Source of the DNA: Chitinophaga pinensis
GTDB lineage: Bacteria; Bacteroidota; Bacteroidia; UBA7662
DNA: 64,000 nt
Reading direction: 5' to 3'
Assembly: GCA_945874665.1 (NCBI GenBank)
Contig: CAMCHJ010000005.1
Coordinates: 1-64,000, forward strand
The notes below the pieces were generated by a model. That model saw nothing but the letters and a program-made list of their open reading frames with translations. It searched no databases and had not been told where the DNA came from. Every line of letters begins with the position of its first letter. The stretch's first letter is position 1. The translations under genes were made by a program, and so were the position numbers. This document shows positions 48,359 to 54,452 of this stretch, piece after piece.

Positions 48359-48826
48359 TTGTGCATGAATCTAATCAAAACTTCCCTTTTGCCTATTTTG
48401 GCAGTTGTGTTGCTCCTCCTTACTGGCTTTTTCCCATTTATAAGCTGGGAAATGGTTGGGAGTAGTTCAGGAAAGCTGATTTTTGGCTTGTATCGATTAG
48501 ATTGGTACACAGCCGGTAGCGAGGTTGTTACCAGTTCGCAAGAAAATAAGGCCCTCGCTTACCTCACTTACGGCATCGCAGGCTTACTGATTGGCCTGCT
48601 GCTCAGCGGAAATAATATAGATTTGAAACAGAAGTTAAAACGGGTGAGTTTGTTGCTCAGCGGCGCGCAGCTGTTTGCCATTACCACAACCGCCTTCAGG
48701 GCTACGCAAGGTTTGACTGGCGAAATCAACAGCTGGGCAATCGGCTTAGGTTATTACTTGAGTGCTGCAGCTTTTCTTTTATTATTGACGAATTATCTAA
48801 ATAAATCGCCTCAATCAGGAGAGTAA
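48359..48826 (+). CDS. Hypothetical membrane protein
   Basis: 155 aa with several predicted TM segments, ATG start close behind TAGCTTTG -7-like element. Confidence 0.6.
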   Translation: MCMNLIKTSLLPILAVVLLLLTGFFPFISWEMVGSSSGKLIFGLYRLDWYTAGSEVVTSSQENKALAYLTYGIAGLLIGLLLSGNNIDLKQKLKRVSLLLSGAQLFAITTTAFRATQGLTGEINSWAIGLGYYLSAAAFLLLLTNYLNKSPQSGE

Positions 48827-49279
48827 TTTCTGGCGCAGGAGGAACTCCAATTGCTCGTTGGCGCGCAAAAGACTTTTAACAAGCTCTTTATTTTCGCCCC
48901 GCAAAGTGTATACTTCCAGTGACTTTTTGATAATGTTCCGCAATTGCTCTTCATCCCAGGGCTTGGTGATGTAATGATAAACTTGCCCTTTATTGATAGC
49001 ATCAATCACCGCTTGAATATCGCTGTAACCCGTCAATAAAATGCGAATAGGATCAGGGTAAATCGGAATGATTTGCTCTAAAAACTCCACACCCGACATT
49101 TCTGGCATACGCTGGTCGGTAATAATTATTTGGATAGGCACCTCATTCAAAATCATCATGCCTTCTTTGGCTGATGCTGCCGTATAAATCAAGAAATCGC
49201 GTCGAAAAGCAGCCTTAAACGATTGAAGGTTATTGATTTCGTCGTCGACATACAAAACACTAAGTTTATTTTCTGTCAT
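48815..49279 (-). CDS. Stand-alone response regulator (REC domain plus short helical tail)
   Basis: VLYVDDEINNLQSF, IIITDQRMPEMSGVEFL, ILLTGYSDIQAVIDAIN, YHYITKPWDEEQL; no output domain. Confidence 0.93.
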   Translation of the reverse strand: MTENKLSVLYVDDEINNLQSFKAAFRRDFLIYTAASAKEGMMILNEVPIQIIITDQRMPEMSGVEFLEQIIPIYPDPIRILLTGYSDIQAVIDAINKGQVYHYITKPWDEEQLRNIIKKSLEVYTLRGENKELVKSLLRANEQLEFLLRQKLLS

Positions 49280-49394
49280 GATCAGGCTATTTGGTTCAAA
49301 AATAAACTTTATCCTGATATGCATGGCAGGATTTATAAATCAATCTCTATATTGCTAATGATTTCTGTTCGCCGCCCCTCATCACTACAATTGC

Positions 49395-50498
49395 ATGGAC
49401 TACTTTGATTACAGAAGTGGGGCTGAAACAAGCAGCTTCTCCCCTATCTTCTTTCAGATAAAAAAAGAAGCAGATGCAGAGGCATTTAACTTGGCAGTGA
49501 GTGACCCAGACCTGCAAATAAACGACACCATTCAAAGGCAGTTGAAGGAGTTAATCCTTACTAGAAATCCTGCTACTACCTATACCGATGACCAATTAGC
49601 CTCGGCCATAACCGAACACTTAGGCAGATTGGGGATTCATGAATACGGAATTTGGGTGCTTTACCCTTGGAGCAAGCGCATGGTACACATACTCGACGAA
49701 CAAGAGTTTACAGAGCTCCGCACCTCCCGTAACAAATACAAAATTACCGCCGCCGAGCAGCACACTTTAAATCAAAAACGGGTTGGCATTGTAGGTTTAT
49801 CTGTTGGCAGTGCTATTGCCATCACCATGGCTATGGAGCGGAGCTTTGGCAGCTTGGTATTAGCTGATTTCGACACCATAGATTTAAGCAATCTTAATCG
49901 TTTGAGGGCTAAGATAAGCGATATTGGCATGAACAAGGCGGTTTTGGTTGCCCGAGAAATCGCCGAAATTGATCCATATTTAAAGGTAGAAGTGGTTGAA
50001 GAAGGCATTACAGATGAGAATTTAGAACGCTTTTTATCCCAAAACGGCGGATTAGATCTTTTAATTGATGAATGCGACAGTCTTGAATACAAGCTCAAAC
50101 TCCGTTTAGCAGCCAAGCGCCTACAAATGGCCGTGGTGATGGAAACCAGCGACCGCGGGATGTTAGACATTGAGCGCTACGACCTAGAGCCTGATTTACC
50201 GCTTTTTCATGGCCGCATTGCCAGCTTTGACCTTTCAAATCCGAGTGAAATCAGTCCAGAAATGCGTATGCAGCTCTTGATGGCAATCGTGGGCTTTGGT
50301 GAGGTTTCTGAGCGGCTGCGCCAATCTTATACGGAAATCGGAAAATCACTCAAAACTTGGCCGCAACTCGCCTCAGCGGTCATGATGGGCGGTGGCACCA
50401 CAGCCGAAATTGCCAGAAGAATTTTATTGGGCGAACAAGTTTCATCAGGTAGGTTTTATGTTGACATGAATGCCCTTGTTCCAAACCTGCATACTTAA
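49395..50498 (+). CDS. ThiF/E1-like adenylyltransferase (Rv1355c-like without an evident nitroreductase domain)
   Basis: KRVGIVGLSVGSAIAITMAMERSFGSLVLADFDTIDLSNLNRLRAKISDIGMNKA nucleotide-binding/adenylation motifs. Confidence 0.88.
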   Translation: MDYFDYRSGAETSSFSPIFFQIKKEADAEAFNLAVSDPDLQINDTIQRQLKELILTRNPATTYTDDQLASAITEHLGRLGIHEYGIWVLYPWSKRMVHILDEQEFTELRTSRNKYKITAAEQHTLNQKRVGIVGLSVGSAIAITMAMERSFGSLVLADFDTIDLSNLNRLRAKISDIGMNKAVLVAREIAEIDPYLKVEVVEEGITDENLERFLSQNGGLDLLIDECDSLEYKLKLRLAAKRLQMAVVMETSDRGMLDIERYDLEPDLPLFHGRIASFDLSNPSEISPEMRMQLLMAIVGFGEVSERLRQSYTEIGKSLKTWPQLASAVMMGGGTTAEIARRILLGEQVSSGRFYVDMNALVPNLHT

Positions 50499-51232
50499 TG
50501 GCCTTAAACAGTATCAAAATAAGAGCCTTTAGGGCCACCGATGACCCTACCTCTTGCGAGCGCTTTATAGAGGGGCATGCACACGTACTAGAGGTTGCAG
50601 GCGTGAAGAAGGTTACCTCTGCCAATCACGATTGGATGTACAACCCTGCAAGTTTTGTGATCATTGTTGAAAACGAAGAAGGCAGCAAGGTATTGGGGGG
50701 TGCTCGCTTGCAATGCAGCGGTGGCAACCAGCCATTACCTGTTGAACAAGCTGCGGGTGAATTTGACGCCAGAATTTACGATGTGGTGCGAGAAAAAAGT
50801 GTTTATGGCACTTCAGAACTGTGTGGTCTTTGGAATTCCCGAGAGATTTCCGGGTTGGGGATTGGTGCCTTTTTTTCAACCAGGGTTGGGGTCGTCCTTG
50901 CAGAGCAGGTAGGTGTAGAAAGCATTTTTGCACTTTGCGCCCCCTATACCGTAAAATTTGCAGAAAAAGTGGGTTGTAGGGTGTTGAAAAGCATTGGGAA
51001 TAACGGCACCTTTTATTATCCCAAAATAGATCTTTTGGCCACCATTGTACTTTTGGAAGATGCACAAACGGTTGAGAAGGCAGACGAAAAAGAGCAAGTA
51101 CGTATTTTTGATTTAAGAAAAAACTTGAACCAGCTATACACTGAAATCTCTCCAATCAAACAAATGGAAGTTGATATACAATATGATTTGCAGCTAAAAA
51201 ATGTGAACCCATCTGAATTCAAAATTCCATAA
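50498..51232 (+). CDS. GNAT-fold / FeeM-autoinducer-synthase-like acyltransferase
   Basis: SELCGLWNSREISGLGIGAFFSTRVGVVLAEQVGVESIFALCAPYTVKFAEKVGCRVL; TAATG coupling to ThiF-like gene. Confidence 0.6.
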   Translation: MALNSIKIRAFRATDDPTSCERFIEGHAHVLEVAGVKKVTSANHDWMYNPASFVIIVENEEGSKVLGGARLQCSGGNQPLPVEQAAGEFDARIYDVVREKSVYGTSELCGLWNSREISGLGIGAFFSTRVGVVLAEQVGVESIFALCAPYTVKFAEKVGCRVLKSIGNNGTFYYPKIDLLATIVLLEDAQTVEKADEKEQVRIFDLRKNLNQLYTEISPIKQMEVDIQYDLQLKNVNPSEFKIP

Positions 51233-51234
51233 CA

Positions 51235-53370
51235 ATGAAAACTGCTTTCATCATTGTACTCCAATTGCTGTTTTTAAGCAGTTCATATGCCCAAAAGGTA
51301 GTTATTCAGGAAGGGCAATCCTCATTTGTTATTGGCAAGCAGGTGGCATTTTTGGAAGATCCTTCTAAAAAAATGGACCTCAACGAGGTTATTTCTAAGG
51401 CCGCTTTATTTCAGAAAAGCAGTATTCAAGTACCTAATTTTCAATACACCAAATCGGCTTATTGGATCAGGTTTGATTTGCTAAATAAAACCAACACTGA
51501 GGATTTGGCAATTGAAATAAGCAATACGCAACTTGATAGGATTGACCTGTACATGCCTGAGGGCTTCAGTTACACCCATGCTCAAATGGGCGATCTGTTG
51601 CCCTTCGCTCAAAGAGCGGTGAACCACCAACATTTCATTTTCCCAATAGTGCTGCAACCCAATCAAAGCGCCACCGTATACATGCGTTTCGAGTCTGTTG
51701 AACAGCTCAGCATTCCCATTACCCTGGGTAAACGCGAAATTGTGCTCACCAATAATTATCGAACCGACATATTTGCAGGCACCTATTTCGGCATCATGTT
51801 CGTGATGTTTTTTTTCAACTTGTTTATTTATTTAAGCGTACGCGACAAAAGCTACCTGTTTTACGTACTGTATATCGTTAGTATTGCCTTGGCACAAGCC
51901 ACACTGTTAGGCTATACTTACAAGTATTTTTGGCCCGAAAACAGCTATTTGAATCACTTAGCAGTCTTGATTTTCAGTGCCTTGGCCGGTTATGGCGCCA
52001 TTCAATTCACACGGATTTTTCTACAATTAGAAACGAACGAGCCTCTAATCAACAAAAGATTAACCTTTTTTGAAGTACTCTATGGAGCTGCTTTACTTAT
52101 TTATCTCTTTGGATTTAGGCGCATTAGCTACAACATATTAGATTTTGCGGCGCTTTTTCTTTCCTTATATGCCTTATATTTTTCCATTAAACTAAGTCTT
52201 AAAGGCCAGCGCACAGCAAAATTCTTTCTCTTCGCTTGGTCATTTTTTTTGGTTGGAATGGTCGTTTACGTGGCTCGCAACATGGGCTGGTTGCCGTATA
52301 ACTTCTTAACCAAAAACGTGTTATTGATGGGTTCAGGCTTAGAATCCGTCTTACTTAGCGTCGCCTTGGCCGACCGCATCAATATCCTAAAAAGAGAAAA
52401 AGAGACTTCTCAAGCCGAGGCCCTACGCATCGCAGAAGAAAATGCACTGCTGGTAACCCAGCAAAACATATTGTTGGAAGCACAAGTCAAAAAGCGCACC
52501 CAAACCCTTGAAACAACCAACAAGGAGCTTGAATCAACGCTATCAAACCTCAAAAACGCTCAAACGCAATTGGTAAATGCTGAAAAAATGGCCTCATTGG
52601 GTCAGCTAACCGCAGGCATCGCTCATGAAATCAACAATCCCATCAATTTTGTAACCTCCAATGTGGCACCACTCAAGCGCGACCTCGATGATGTTTTTGA
52701 GTTGATTAGTTTATACGATTCACTGCAAGAAGAGCTTACGCACGACAATCAGCTTTTCGAAAAAATAGCGCTTTTCAAGAAAAATATCGATTTTGATTAT
52801 CTGAAAGAAGAGATAAAAATGCTCTTAAATGGCATCGGTGAAGGTGCCAACCGAACTGCAGAAATTGTGCAAGGTCTGCGTATTTTTTCGAGGTTAGATG
52901 AAAGCGACTTGAAAAAAGTAGACATCAACGAAGGCATCGACAGTACCTTGGTTTTGCTCAATAGCACCTTAGCAAACCGGGTTCAAGTCGTTAAAAACTA
53001 TGATCCGGATGCCTATTTAGAATGTTATCCAGGAAAGCTGAACCAGGTAATCATGAACATCGCCAACAATGCCATCCATGCCATGCTGGCCGATACAGAG
53101 AAAAAAACGGGCACCCTCACCATTACTACCAAAGCGCTTGCCGATACCATTAACATCACCATTTCCGACACAGGCATAGGCATGAGTGAAAAAGTGCGTT
53201 CCAAAATTTTTGACCCGTTTTTCACCACCAAAAGTGTTGGCCAAGGCACGGGTCTTGGATTATCTATTGTGTACAGCATTATAGAACTTCATAAAGGCAG
53301 TATTTCTGTTGCTTCTGCCTTGAGCATAGGTACTACTTTTTCAATAGATTTACCAAAATATCAAAGGTAA
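51235..53370 (+). CDS. 7TMR-DISM sensor histidine kinase
   Basis: Signal peptide, DISMED2-like ectodomain, 7 TM segments, coiled coil, H-box MASLGQLTAGIAHEINNPINF, N/G boxes and GTGLGLSIVYSI. Confidence 0.92.
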   Translation: MKTAFIIVLQLLFLSSSYAQKVVIQEGQSSFVIGKQVAFLEDPSKKMDLNEVISKAALFQKSSIQVPNFQYTKSAYWIRFDLLNKTNTEDLAIEISNTQLDRIDLYMPEGFSYTHAQMGDLLPFAQRAVNHQHFIFPIVLQPNQSATVYMRFESVEQLSIPITLGKREIVLTNNYRTDIFAGTYFGIMFVMFFFNLFIYLSVRDKSYLFYVLYIVSIALAQATLLGYTYKYFWPENSYLNHLAVLIFSALAGYGAIQFTRIFLQLETNEPLINKRLTFFEVLYGAALLIYLFGFRRISYNILDFAALFLSLYALYFSIKLSLKGQRTAKFFLFAWSFFLVGMVVYVARNMGWLPYNFLTKNVLLMGSGLESVLLSVALADRINILKREKETSQAEALRIAEENALLVTQQNILLEAQVKKRTQTLETTNKELESTLSNLKNAQTQLVNAEKMASLGQLTAGIAHEINNPINFVTSNVAPLKRDLDDVFELISLYDSLQEELTHDNQLFEKIALFKKNIDFDYLKEEIKMLLNGIGEGANRTAEIVQGLRIFSRLDESDLKKVDINEGIDSTLVLLNSTLANRVQVVKNYDPDAYLECYPGKLNQVIMNIANNAIHAMLADTEKKTGTLTITTKALADTINITISDTGIGMSEKVRSKIFDPFFTTKSVGQGTGLGLSIVYSIIELHKGSISVASALSIGTTFSIDLPKYQR

Positions 53371-54452
53371 TGCAAGGTAAAATAGCAGTGTTATACATCG
53401 ACGATGAAAGACATAATTTGTATGCCTTCAGAGCCACCTTTAGGATAGATTATGAGGTTTACATCGCAGAAAGCACTGATGAAGCCCGGCAAATACTTGC
53501 GAATCATGCTATCTCCATTGTAGTTGCCGACCAACGCATGCCAAAAGAAACAGGCATCGAGTTTTTTGAGTCAATCATGCGCACACACCCCCATGTAATG
53601 CGCATTTTGCTAACGGGCTACACAGATATTCAAGCTGTAATCAATGCGGTAAACCTGGGCAATGTATTTCGTTATCTTCAAAAACCTTGGAAAGAAGAAG
53701 AAATCAGAACAGCGATCAGTCAGGCTTATGAAATTCACCACGCGCGTGAGCAGGTCATCATAAAAAACAAAGACCTAGAGTTGGCTTATTCTGAACTCGA
53801 CAAATTTGTATACAGTGCCTCGCACGACATGCGTTCGCCACTGATGAGCATATTGGGCGTTATAAAAATAGCTAGGCTAGAAGGCAACCAATCCAATACC
53901 AAGGCTTACTTCGATATGATTGAAGAGAGCGTTGACCGCTTGGATGGATTCATCAAAAACATCATTGACTATTACCAGAACAAACGAATTAATTTGCATT
54001 ATTCTGAAATAGACTTCCAGGACATGGTGGATTTTTGCATCCAGAATCAACTCCAAAACGCGCCATCTGAAATCAATTTTAATGTGGAAATAGCACAAAC
54101 ACTGCCATTTACTTCCGATAAATTAAAGTTGGGTATTGCCATAAGCAATTTGATTAGCAATGGAATTAAATATCAAGACCATAGCAAGACTAAAAAAGAG
54201 CTCTCGGTTAAAGTAACGGTAGATGCTACACGGGCAACCATTCGCATTGAAGACAACGGAATTGGTATTCAGGAGGGAGAAACCGAAAATATTTTTAAGA
54301 TATTTTACCGTGCTACCAATAGGAATCCAGGCTCGGGCATTGGGCTTTATGTTGTAAAAGACGCCATAGATCAACTCAATGGCACTATTGAGGTGCAGTC
54401 GACTTACGGCCAAGGCAGCATTTTTGAATTGAAGATACCCAATCAAGCATAG
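53370..54452 (+). CDS. REC-histidine kinase hybrid
   Basis: REC (LYIDDE, VVADQRMP, LLTGYTD, QKPW) then H-box SASHDMRSPLMS and EDNGIGI / GSGIGLYVVKDAI; TAATG coupling upstream. Confidence 0.93.
   Translation: MQGKIAVLYIDDERHNLYAFRATFRIDYEVYIAESTDEARQILANHAISIVVADQRMPKETGIEFFESIMRTHPHVMRILLTGYTDIQAVINAVNLGNVFRYLQKPWKEEEIRTAISQAYEIHHAREQVIIKNKDLELAYSELDKFVYSASHDMRSPLMSILGVIKIARLEGNQSNTKAYFDMIEESVDRLDGFIKNIIDYYQNKRINLHYSEIDFQDMVDFCIQNQLQNAPSEINFNVEIAQTLPFTSDKLKLGIAISNLISNGIKYQDHSKTKKELSVKVTVDATRATIRIEDNGIGIQEGETENIFKIFYRATNRNPGSGIGLYVVKDAIDQLNGTIEVQSTYGQGSIFELKIPNQA

Follow-up and report, generated by a model that had tools for sequence, protein, structure and literature searches.

Gene content and organization of the locus

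The window, a 64,000-nucleotide stretch of Chitinophaga pinensis contig CAMCHJ010000005.1 (assembly GCA_945874665.1) that we analyzed computationally, carries a group of closely packed genes in which a putative biosynthetic pair adjoins a receptor kinase. The first gene of the pair (49395-50498, plus strand) encodes a 367-aa stand-alone ThiF protein, assigned to the TrzS/TyzB-type cyclases from NF005901, PF00899 and its active-site signature, that lacks the C-terminal flavin-dependent oxidase domain. A TAATG overlap joins its stop codon to the start of the second gene, an ORF of 244 codons with an ATG start that occupies exactly 50498-51232 (plus strand) and is predicted to encode an N-acyltransferase of the FeeM/AHL-synthase fold. 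Only 2 bases after this gene begins that of a 711-aa 7TMR-DISM receptor histidine kinase (51235-53370, plus strand; PF07696, PF07695, HisKA and HATPase_c). Its sensor portion comprises two Pfam-identified domains, a 7TMR-DISMED2 periplasmic domain at residues 34-164 (51334-51726), which belongs to the half exchanged along with the tailoring enzyme in relatives, and a 7TM membrane domain at residues 179-381 (51769-52377), directly after which the breakpoint of that exchange falls. The stop codon of the receptor kinase is in turn overlapped by the start codon of a 360-aa receiver-histidine kinase hybrid (REC-HisKA-HATPase; 53370-54452, plus strand).

On the other side, 70 bases upstream of the ThiF gene, a divergent gene (48815-49324, minus strand) encodes a single-domain response regulator of 169 aa that consists of REC only. 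In Pfam searches, neither this protein nor the REC-kinase has a DNA-binding domain, and no DNA-binding output is encoded at the locus, which means that the pathway must have its output at another place in the genome. No conserved small modifier protein was seen among the ORFs of 90 aa or more at the locus. An earlier sequence-only reading had placed the acyltransferase between an adenylating enzyme and a sensor kinase, and both neighbors are indeed present.

Predicted fold and family of the acyltransferase

Searches of the acyltransferase sequence against Pfam, NCBIfam and the PDB returned chance matches only. The Pfam Acetyltransf family gave no match for the window protein and sub-threshold matches for single relatives, while the autoinducer-synthase models of Pfam and NCBIfam all failed to match either the window protein or the 12 members of its family tested, so that a LuxI-type enzyme is not indicated. 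The GNAT fold was confirmed by an AlphaFold2 model built from 12 homologues (mean pLDDT, 89.5; pTM, 0.88). When this model was compared with the PDB using Foldseek, ranks 1 to 11 were occupied by BjaI, FeeM, MesI, RpaI and EsaI, and the first ordinary GNAT appeared at rank 12; the E-value margin over ordinary GNATs is modest (2.8e-7 versus 8e-6), and the ordering is consistent. Superposition on FeeM gave a TM score of 0.77 on the FeeM length at approximately 14% sequence identity. The sequence-only reading had described the protein as a FeeM/autoinducer-synthase-like GNAT and had named a best match to RimI-type acetyltransferases as the result that would speak against this; the outcome was the opposite, with AHL synthases and FeeM ahead. 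A RimI-like acetyl-CoA GNAT was also rejected from the sequence, in which a glutamate (Glu116) stands at the R/Q position and no Pfam GNAT family is matched. The mycobacterial acyltransferase TyzA of M. tuberculosis is likewise reported to be closest in fold to FeeM and BjaI (PMC10404671).

About 30 residues are nearly invariant across the acyltransferase family. The most prominent block is the motif ELCGLWN (residues 107-113; 50816-50836, plus strand), which lies in strand beta-4 and in which, among 71 nr sequences, E107 and W112 are conserved at 100%, G110, L111 and N113 at 96-99%, and C109 at 94%. AHL synthases carry an E-x-S-R motif in strand beta-4, and by analogy ELCGLWN is presumed to be the equivalent catalytic and pantetheine region. 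It aligns with a V-E-M-K-S-A-W-V stretch of TrzA-like proteins. The sequence-only reading had seen a resemblance to the (R/Q)xxGxG/A pantetheine-binding segment in this part of the protein. The core it quoted is present (residues 107-163) and the two glycines are conserved (G119 at 99%, G121 at 100%), but the literal motif is absent, since Glu116 precedes xxGxG and a glutamate is found at that position in 89% of the family. Its description of the last 60 or so residues as an unusual extension does not hold either. The quoted tail exists (within residues 192-241), but it belongs to a C-terminal part (residues 188-244; 51059-51229, plus strand) that is kept throughout the family, with A195, R207, E216 and Y229 conserved, and that is modeled as a helix (197-208) followed by two strands (211-217 and 224-230), most of it at a block-mean pLDDT of more than 90.

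A profile of 71 acyltransferase homologues was also aligned with three TrzA-like proteins from Rhodococcus and Nocardia plasmids, which lie beside Rv1355c-family TrzS proteins and are called TrzA by context only. The match is remote (hhalign E, 6.8e-5; probability, 63%; 169 colinear columns), and its score of 38.2 exceeds the maximum of 27.2 in 60 column-shuffled controls. A Mycolicibacterium plasmid protein that adjoins Rv1355c was considered as a further candidate and proved not to be a TrzA. Our prediction for the window protein is an enzyme that has the autoinducer-synthase fold and forms N-acyl amino acids.

A TrzS/TyzB-type cyclase without a detectable desaturase

The ThiF protein matches NF005901, the Rv1355c family, over positions 5-342 of 722 (E, 1.8e-134), and its total score of 449.6 falls under the full-length cut-off of 476 because the desaturase half is missing. 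It also matches PF00899 and carries an active-site signature (GLSVG, NxNR, K181, ECD, DRGxxDxERxD and HG) in common with plasmid-borne TrzS-type proteins. The central catalytic portion, E226-C227-D228 ... D253-R-G-x-x-D258-x-E260-R261-x-D263 ... H272-G273, is encoded at 50070-50213 (plus strand), and at least 95% conservation is found at most positions of the signature across 61 ThiF domains that include TrzS-type proteins of Mycolicibacterium and Rhodococcus as well as Streptomyces proteins. Judged by these sequence features, the upstream adenylating enzyme is a ThiF cyclase of the TrzS/TyzB type, the enzyme of acyl-oxazolone formation known from mycobacteria (PMC12856293, PMC10404671). Rv1355c itself is TrzS, a cyclase-desaturase fusion that converts N-acyl tryptophan to tryptazolone (PMC12856293), and TyzB/TyzC and OxzB carry out similar chemistry on N-acyl tyrosine (PMC12856293, PMC10404671). 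Exposure to acid or methanol opens the ring of these products (PMC12856293).

The flavin-dependent desaturase that accompanies these enzymes is absent from the ThiF ORF, and a desaturase profile found none in the window genome, which is 96% complete. The same profile found nothing in the other six ThiF-only genomes among the relatives (seven with the window genome) or in 11 further cyclase-only genomes, whereas it recovered the desaturase in 3/3 of the fusion-type genomes from which it was built, plus one split by contig ends, and in 3/3 independent fusion-type genomes. One methyltransferase-type genome gave a weak 48-residue match (E, 3e-4) that is most likely a generic nitroreductase. The sole nitroreductase elsewhere in the window genome is an ordinary protein of 224 aa and was rejected as the desaturase. 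We consider it likely that the window genome lacks the desaturase altogether. On the ThiF tree, cyclase-only and fusion forms interchange approximately 8 times. A Streptomyces plasmid (NZ_CP109451.1, locus L125, 4914-6712) carries a further and independent TrzS-type cyclase of the ThiF-only form, which shares 45% identity with that of the window. No desaturase gene lies beside it; its gene overlaps that of an ordinary PF13302 GNAT, which by profile is unrelated to the window acyltransferase.

Distribution of the operon and its variable tailoring gene

Homologues of the acyltransferase were found in about 12 of 60 relatives, in 13 of the 396 genomes of a phylum-wide draw, and in 463 stretches of the genome collection, and none was found in the viral contigs and plasmids searched. 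We assembled 102 related loci, a few of which represent the same place reached twice; 80 were the most similar of the 463 stretches, and the 13 phylum-draw genomes had been chosen without regard to similarity. All hosts are Bacteroidota where records name them, and the cultured ones include members of Sphingobacterium, Parapedobacter and Daejeonella. The operon is strongly conserved. A 7TMR-DISM kinase is co-oriented with the acyltransferase in 99/102 loci and present in 13/13 phylum-draw genomes, a relative of the REC-only protein occurs in 101/102 loci, and the REC-kinase in 93/102. Exactly one copy of the acyltransferase was present in each of 20 genomes checked (20/20).

Two loci (L051 and L065) keep the ThiF, acyltransferase and divergent REC genes with no adjoining 7TMR-DISM kinase, and their receptor may have been lost or may be encoded elsewhere. 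Four loci of one related group (L132, L133, L134 and L135, in genomes G248, G165, G130 and G327) have a REC-domain gene upstream; in L132 and L134, the two tested, it encodes a REC-PglZ protein like the type IX secretion regulator PorX, which could be an output of the pathway or a mere neighbor.

What varies among the 102 loci is the enzyme beside the acyltransferase. This slot is filled by a stand-alone ThiF in 43 loci, a class-I SAM methyltransferase in 32, a ThiF-desaturase fusion (ThiF-FDO) in 16, and an ICMT-type membrane methyltransferase in 7 (PF04140; E, 1e-19 to 5e-22); it is empty in 3 and cut by a contig end in 1. ThiF cyclases and ICMT act on carboxylates. The simplest common theme would be that each slot enzyme caps the carboxylate of an N-acyl amino acid, although a class-I methyltransferase could act elsewhere on the molecule. 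The three loci without a tailoring enzyme (L097, L101 and L136) retain the acyltransferase and the 7TMR-DISM kinase, and the sensors of L097 and L101 fall inside the clade of ICMT-type sensors, a position that would fit a recent loss of the cap.

The sensor half of the kinase changes with the tailoring enzyme

The slot enzyme present at a locus predicts the sensor half of its kinase. Among Sphingobacterium loci (16 cyclase-type and 23 methyltransferase-type), identity in same-class versus different-class pairs was 77% versus 72% for the kinase domain and 82% versus 72% for the acyltransferase, but 69% versus 34% for the 7TM domain and 54% versus 24% for DISMED2. Across relatives the drop in identity stops sharply near kinase residue 400, just past the 7TM domain. 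The mosaic is clear in Sphingobacterium faecale (L060) and S. paucimobilis (L079), one of which has a ThiF and the other a methyltransferase: identity is 91% in the REC protein, 87% in the acyltransferase, 91% in the kinase half and 92% in the REC-kinase, but 22% in DISMED2 and 31% in the 7TM domain.

Phylogenetic analysis was performed on the 93 distinct loci that have a kinase, with the tailoring class fixed from gene content before the trees were seen. Changes between methyltransferase and the remaining classes number 1 on the sensor tree, compared with 12 on the kinase tree and 9 each on the acyltransferase and REC-kinase trees. All 31 methyltransferase-type sensors form one clade that extends across several genera, and the kinase and acyltransferase trees split them; AU tests reject a single methyltransferase clade, with p values of 6e-67 for the kinase and 2e-4 for the acyltransferase. 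In 28 of 29 disjoint different-class pairs, 7TM identity was below that expected from kinase identity, and none of these pairs was a methyltransferase/cyclase pair that had kept its sensor. We relied on the trees, the AU tests and the disjoint pairs rather than on naive permutation p-values for class against sensor distance, which ignore relatedness.

There are exceptions. In two pairs that differ only in the desaturase (L100/L129 and L053/L066), the sensors are about as similar as expected. Loci of the ICMT type and those with a class-I methyltransferase could have one and the same methyl ester as their product, but they have no common sensor clade. These observations, like the lack of a DNA-binding output at the locus, weigh against the signaling model proposed below. 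The swaps themselves are seen in relatives; the close relatives of the window locus are all cyclase-type.

Proposed pathway and comparison with known systems

The co-change of the modifying enzyme and the sensing half suggests a cell-to-cell signaling system that makes and senses its own lipid signal. In our view the operon is probably a self-contained small-lipid signaling system, in which an N-acyl amino acid capped at its carboxyl group is sensed by the cognate 7TM kinase. The acyltransferase would acylate an amino acid on its amino group, with acyl-CoA or acyl-ACP as the donor, as FeeM, TyzA and TrzA do. The ThiF cyclase would then adenylate this N-acyl amino acid at its carboxylate, with ring closure to a 5(4H)-oxazolone. 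This neutral, lipid-like product would be released and recognized by the 7TMR-DISMED2/7TM sensor, and from the kinase the signal would pass by phosphotransfer to the REC-kinase and the divergent REC protein, and on to an output outside the locus. Elsewhere in Bacteroidota, the same acyltransferase and kinase would work with other carboxyl-capping enzymes, the cyclase and methyltransferase types each having its own type of sensor. The sequence-only reading had suggested signal synthesis from gene placement, and this role gains support from the operon and from the co-inheritance of enzyme type with the sensor half of the receptor.

The operon partly resembles several known systems. Like the TrzAS, TyzACB and OxzAB clusters of Mycobacterium, Rhodococcus and Pseudoalteromonas, it places an N-acyltransferase of FeeM-like fold beside a ThiF-type cyclase, but its acyltransferase forms a separate family with a putative remote homology to TrzA-like proteins, the flavin-dependent desaturase is neither in the operon nor detected in the genome, and it includes a 7TMR-DISM receptor kinase, a component not reported for the mycobacterial clusters. 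In M. tuberculosis, trzAS lies near genes of c-di-GMP turnover (PMC12856293), and the TrzA-like and TrzS-like genes on two Rhodococcus plasmids (L127, 1826-6028; L141, 1714-5962) similarly adjoin a GGDEF-domain gene. FeeM and other N-acyl amino acid synthases share the predicted fold, but the window protein differs from FeeM in its sequence, its lack of a Pfam or NCBIfam match, its greater length (244 aa), its folded C-terminal segment, and its operon with a cyclase and a receptor. The best Foldseek E-values were to the CoA-dependent AHL synthases BjaI, MesI and RpaI, of the LuxI kind; here, however, no autoinducer-synthase family is matched, the expected acceptor is an amino acid rather than S-adenosylmethionine, and the sensor is a membrane kinase rather than a LuxR protein.

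On the receptor side, Ralstonia PhcB/PhcS offers a similar logic, in which a histidine kinase detects a fatty-acid methyl ester as the signal (PMC11960443), and this parallels the methyltransferase-type loci. The likeness is one of logic; PhcB/PhcS uses a signal other than an N-acyl amino acid, and the window has a ThiF instead of a methyltransferase. NicD of Pseudomonas aeruginosa shares the DISMED2 and 7TM sensor architecture but is a diguanylate cyclase, whereas the window receptor has a histidine-kinase output and linked synthesis genes. The DISMED2 domain of NicD, one with a reported ligand, is said to bind carbohydrates (as cited in PMC8544897), which speaks against a lipid ligand.

Alternative explanations

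The weakest step of the proposed pathway is its product. Since the operon lacks the usual flavin desaturase and none was detected in the genome, the cyclase is predicted to yield a saturated 2-alkyl-oxazolone, and such rings are reactive. Saturated azlactones hydrolyze and racemize readily, which makes them awkward as diffusible signals. The main alternative within the signaling model, a minority possibility that we nevertheless take seriously, is that the acyl-adenylate or oxazolone made by ThiF is an intermediate through which a further nucleophile is attached to the N-acyl amino acid, so that the signal would be an amide or ester. Besides the reactivity of saturated oxazolones, the recurrence of ThiF-only pairs, including one with a GNAT on the Streptomyces plasmid, is in keeping with such coupling, as are clusters of Stieleria, Massilia and Thalassotalea that have a ThiF and in which no oxazolone was seen (PMC12479983). 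The operon, however, contains neither a gene for a further coupling enzyme nor a conserved one for making a nucleophile, and the saturated cyclized intermediate of TrzS can be detected in vitro (PMC12856293). A different reading of ThiF starts from the fold that it has in common with MoeB and E1 enzymes and from its PF00899 match: it could activate a small protein modifier while the GNAT acetylates a protein. We regard such a protein-modification system as very improbable, given that this ThiF falls in the Rv1355c/TrzS family, whose tested members cyclize N-acyl amino acids, that no conserved small modifier was seen among the ORFs of 90 aa or more, and that two unrelated types of methyltransferase replace ThiF elsewhere.

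Two further alternatives concern the receptor. N-acyl amino acids serve as membrane lipids and antibiotics, so the product could be an envelope lipid or an antimicrobial, with the kinase sensing envelope stress or the damage done by the compound rather than the compound itself. The ligands of 7TMR-DISM proteins are poorly known. Cell pellets hold most of the tyrazolone, and tryptazolones, too, are present in greater amounts within cells than outside (PMC10404671, PMC12856293). We still judge this explanation unlikely, in that a general stress sensor would have no need for new periplasmic and 7TM domains whenever the tailoring enzyme is replaced, and the single acyltransferase per genome is nearly always paired with its own kinase. 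It is also conceivable that homologous recombination between the conserved acyltransferase and kinase flanks simply moves the segment between them, with product and sensor functionally unlinked. In most swapped loci the tailoring gene adjoins the sensor-coding half, directly preceding it in the most striking Sphingobacterium pairs, so that a single recombination could carry both without functional coupling, and the C terminus of the acyltransferase likewise diverges near the junction. Yet 31/31 methyltransferase-type sensors fall in one clade that the kinase and acyltransferase trees break up, and the 29 different-class pairs include no methyltransferase/cyclase pair in which the sensor was retained. 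Furthermore, four loci in which the cyclase precedes the acyltransferase (L088, L094, L104 and L137) share a sensor clade with loci in which it lies downstream, which makes linkage alone a weaker account, and we find hitch-hiking of this kind less likely still than a stress sensor.

Implications

The locus is best read as a putative case of synthase-receptor quorum sensing built on FeeM/Trz-type chemistry. Relatives of each enzyme type are in the literature and the biosynthesis of N-acyl oxazolones is published; in the open-access literature, to which our search was confined, we found no description of a receptor-coupled Bacteroidota operon or of an exchange between tailoring enzyme and sensor half. 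The physiological role of acyl-oxazolones has been called a major unresolved question, with signaling only speculated upon (PMC12856293). At this locus, a biosynthetic pair of that kind is wired directly to a receptor kinase. The sensing half of such receptors follows the modifying enzyme from locus to locus, a pattern that points to a match between ligand and receptor, and a receptor-coupled locus makes the function of oxazolones directly testable. On balance we lean, somewhat less firmly than for the operon itself, toward a quorum-sensing family of Bacteroidota that combines a FeeM-fold acyltransferase, an exchangeable capping enzyme (giving an oxazolone, a dehydro-oxazolone or a methyl ester), and a 7TMR-DISM kinase with a co-exchanged, matching sensor half. 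If this is true, Bacteroidota would gain a lipid quorum-sensing system of their own and 7TMR-DISM kinases a class of ligand; acyl-oxazolones would have a receptor, and species and strains would carry signal/receptor types comparable to pherotypes.
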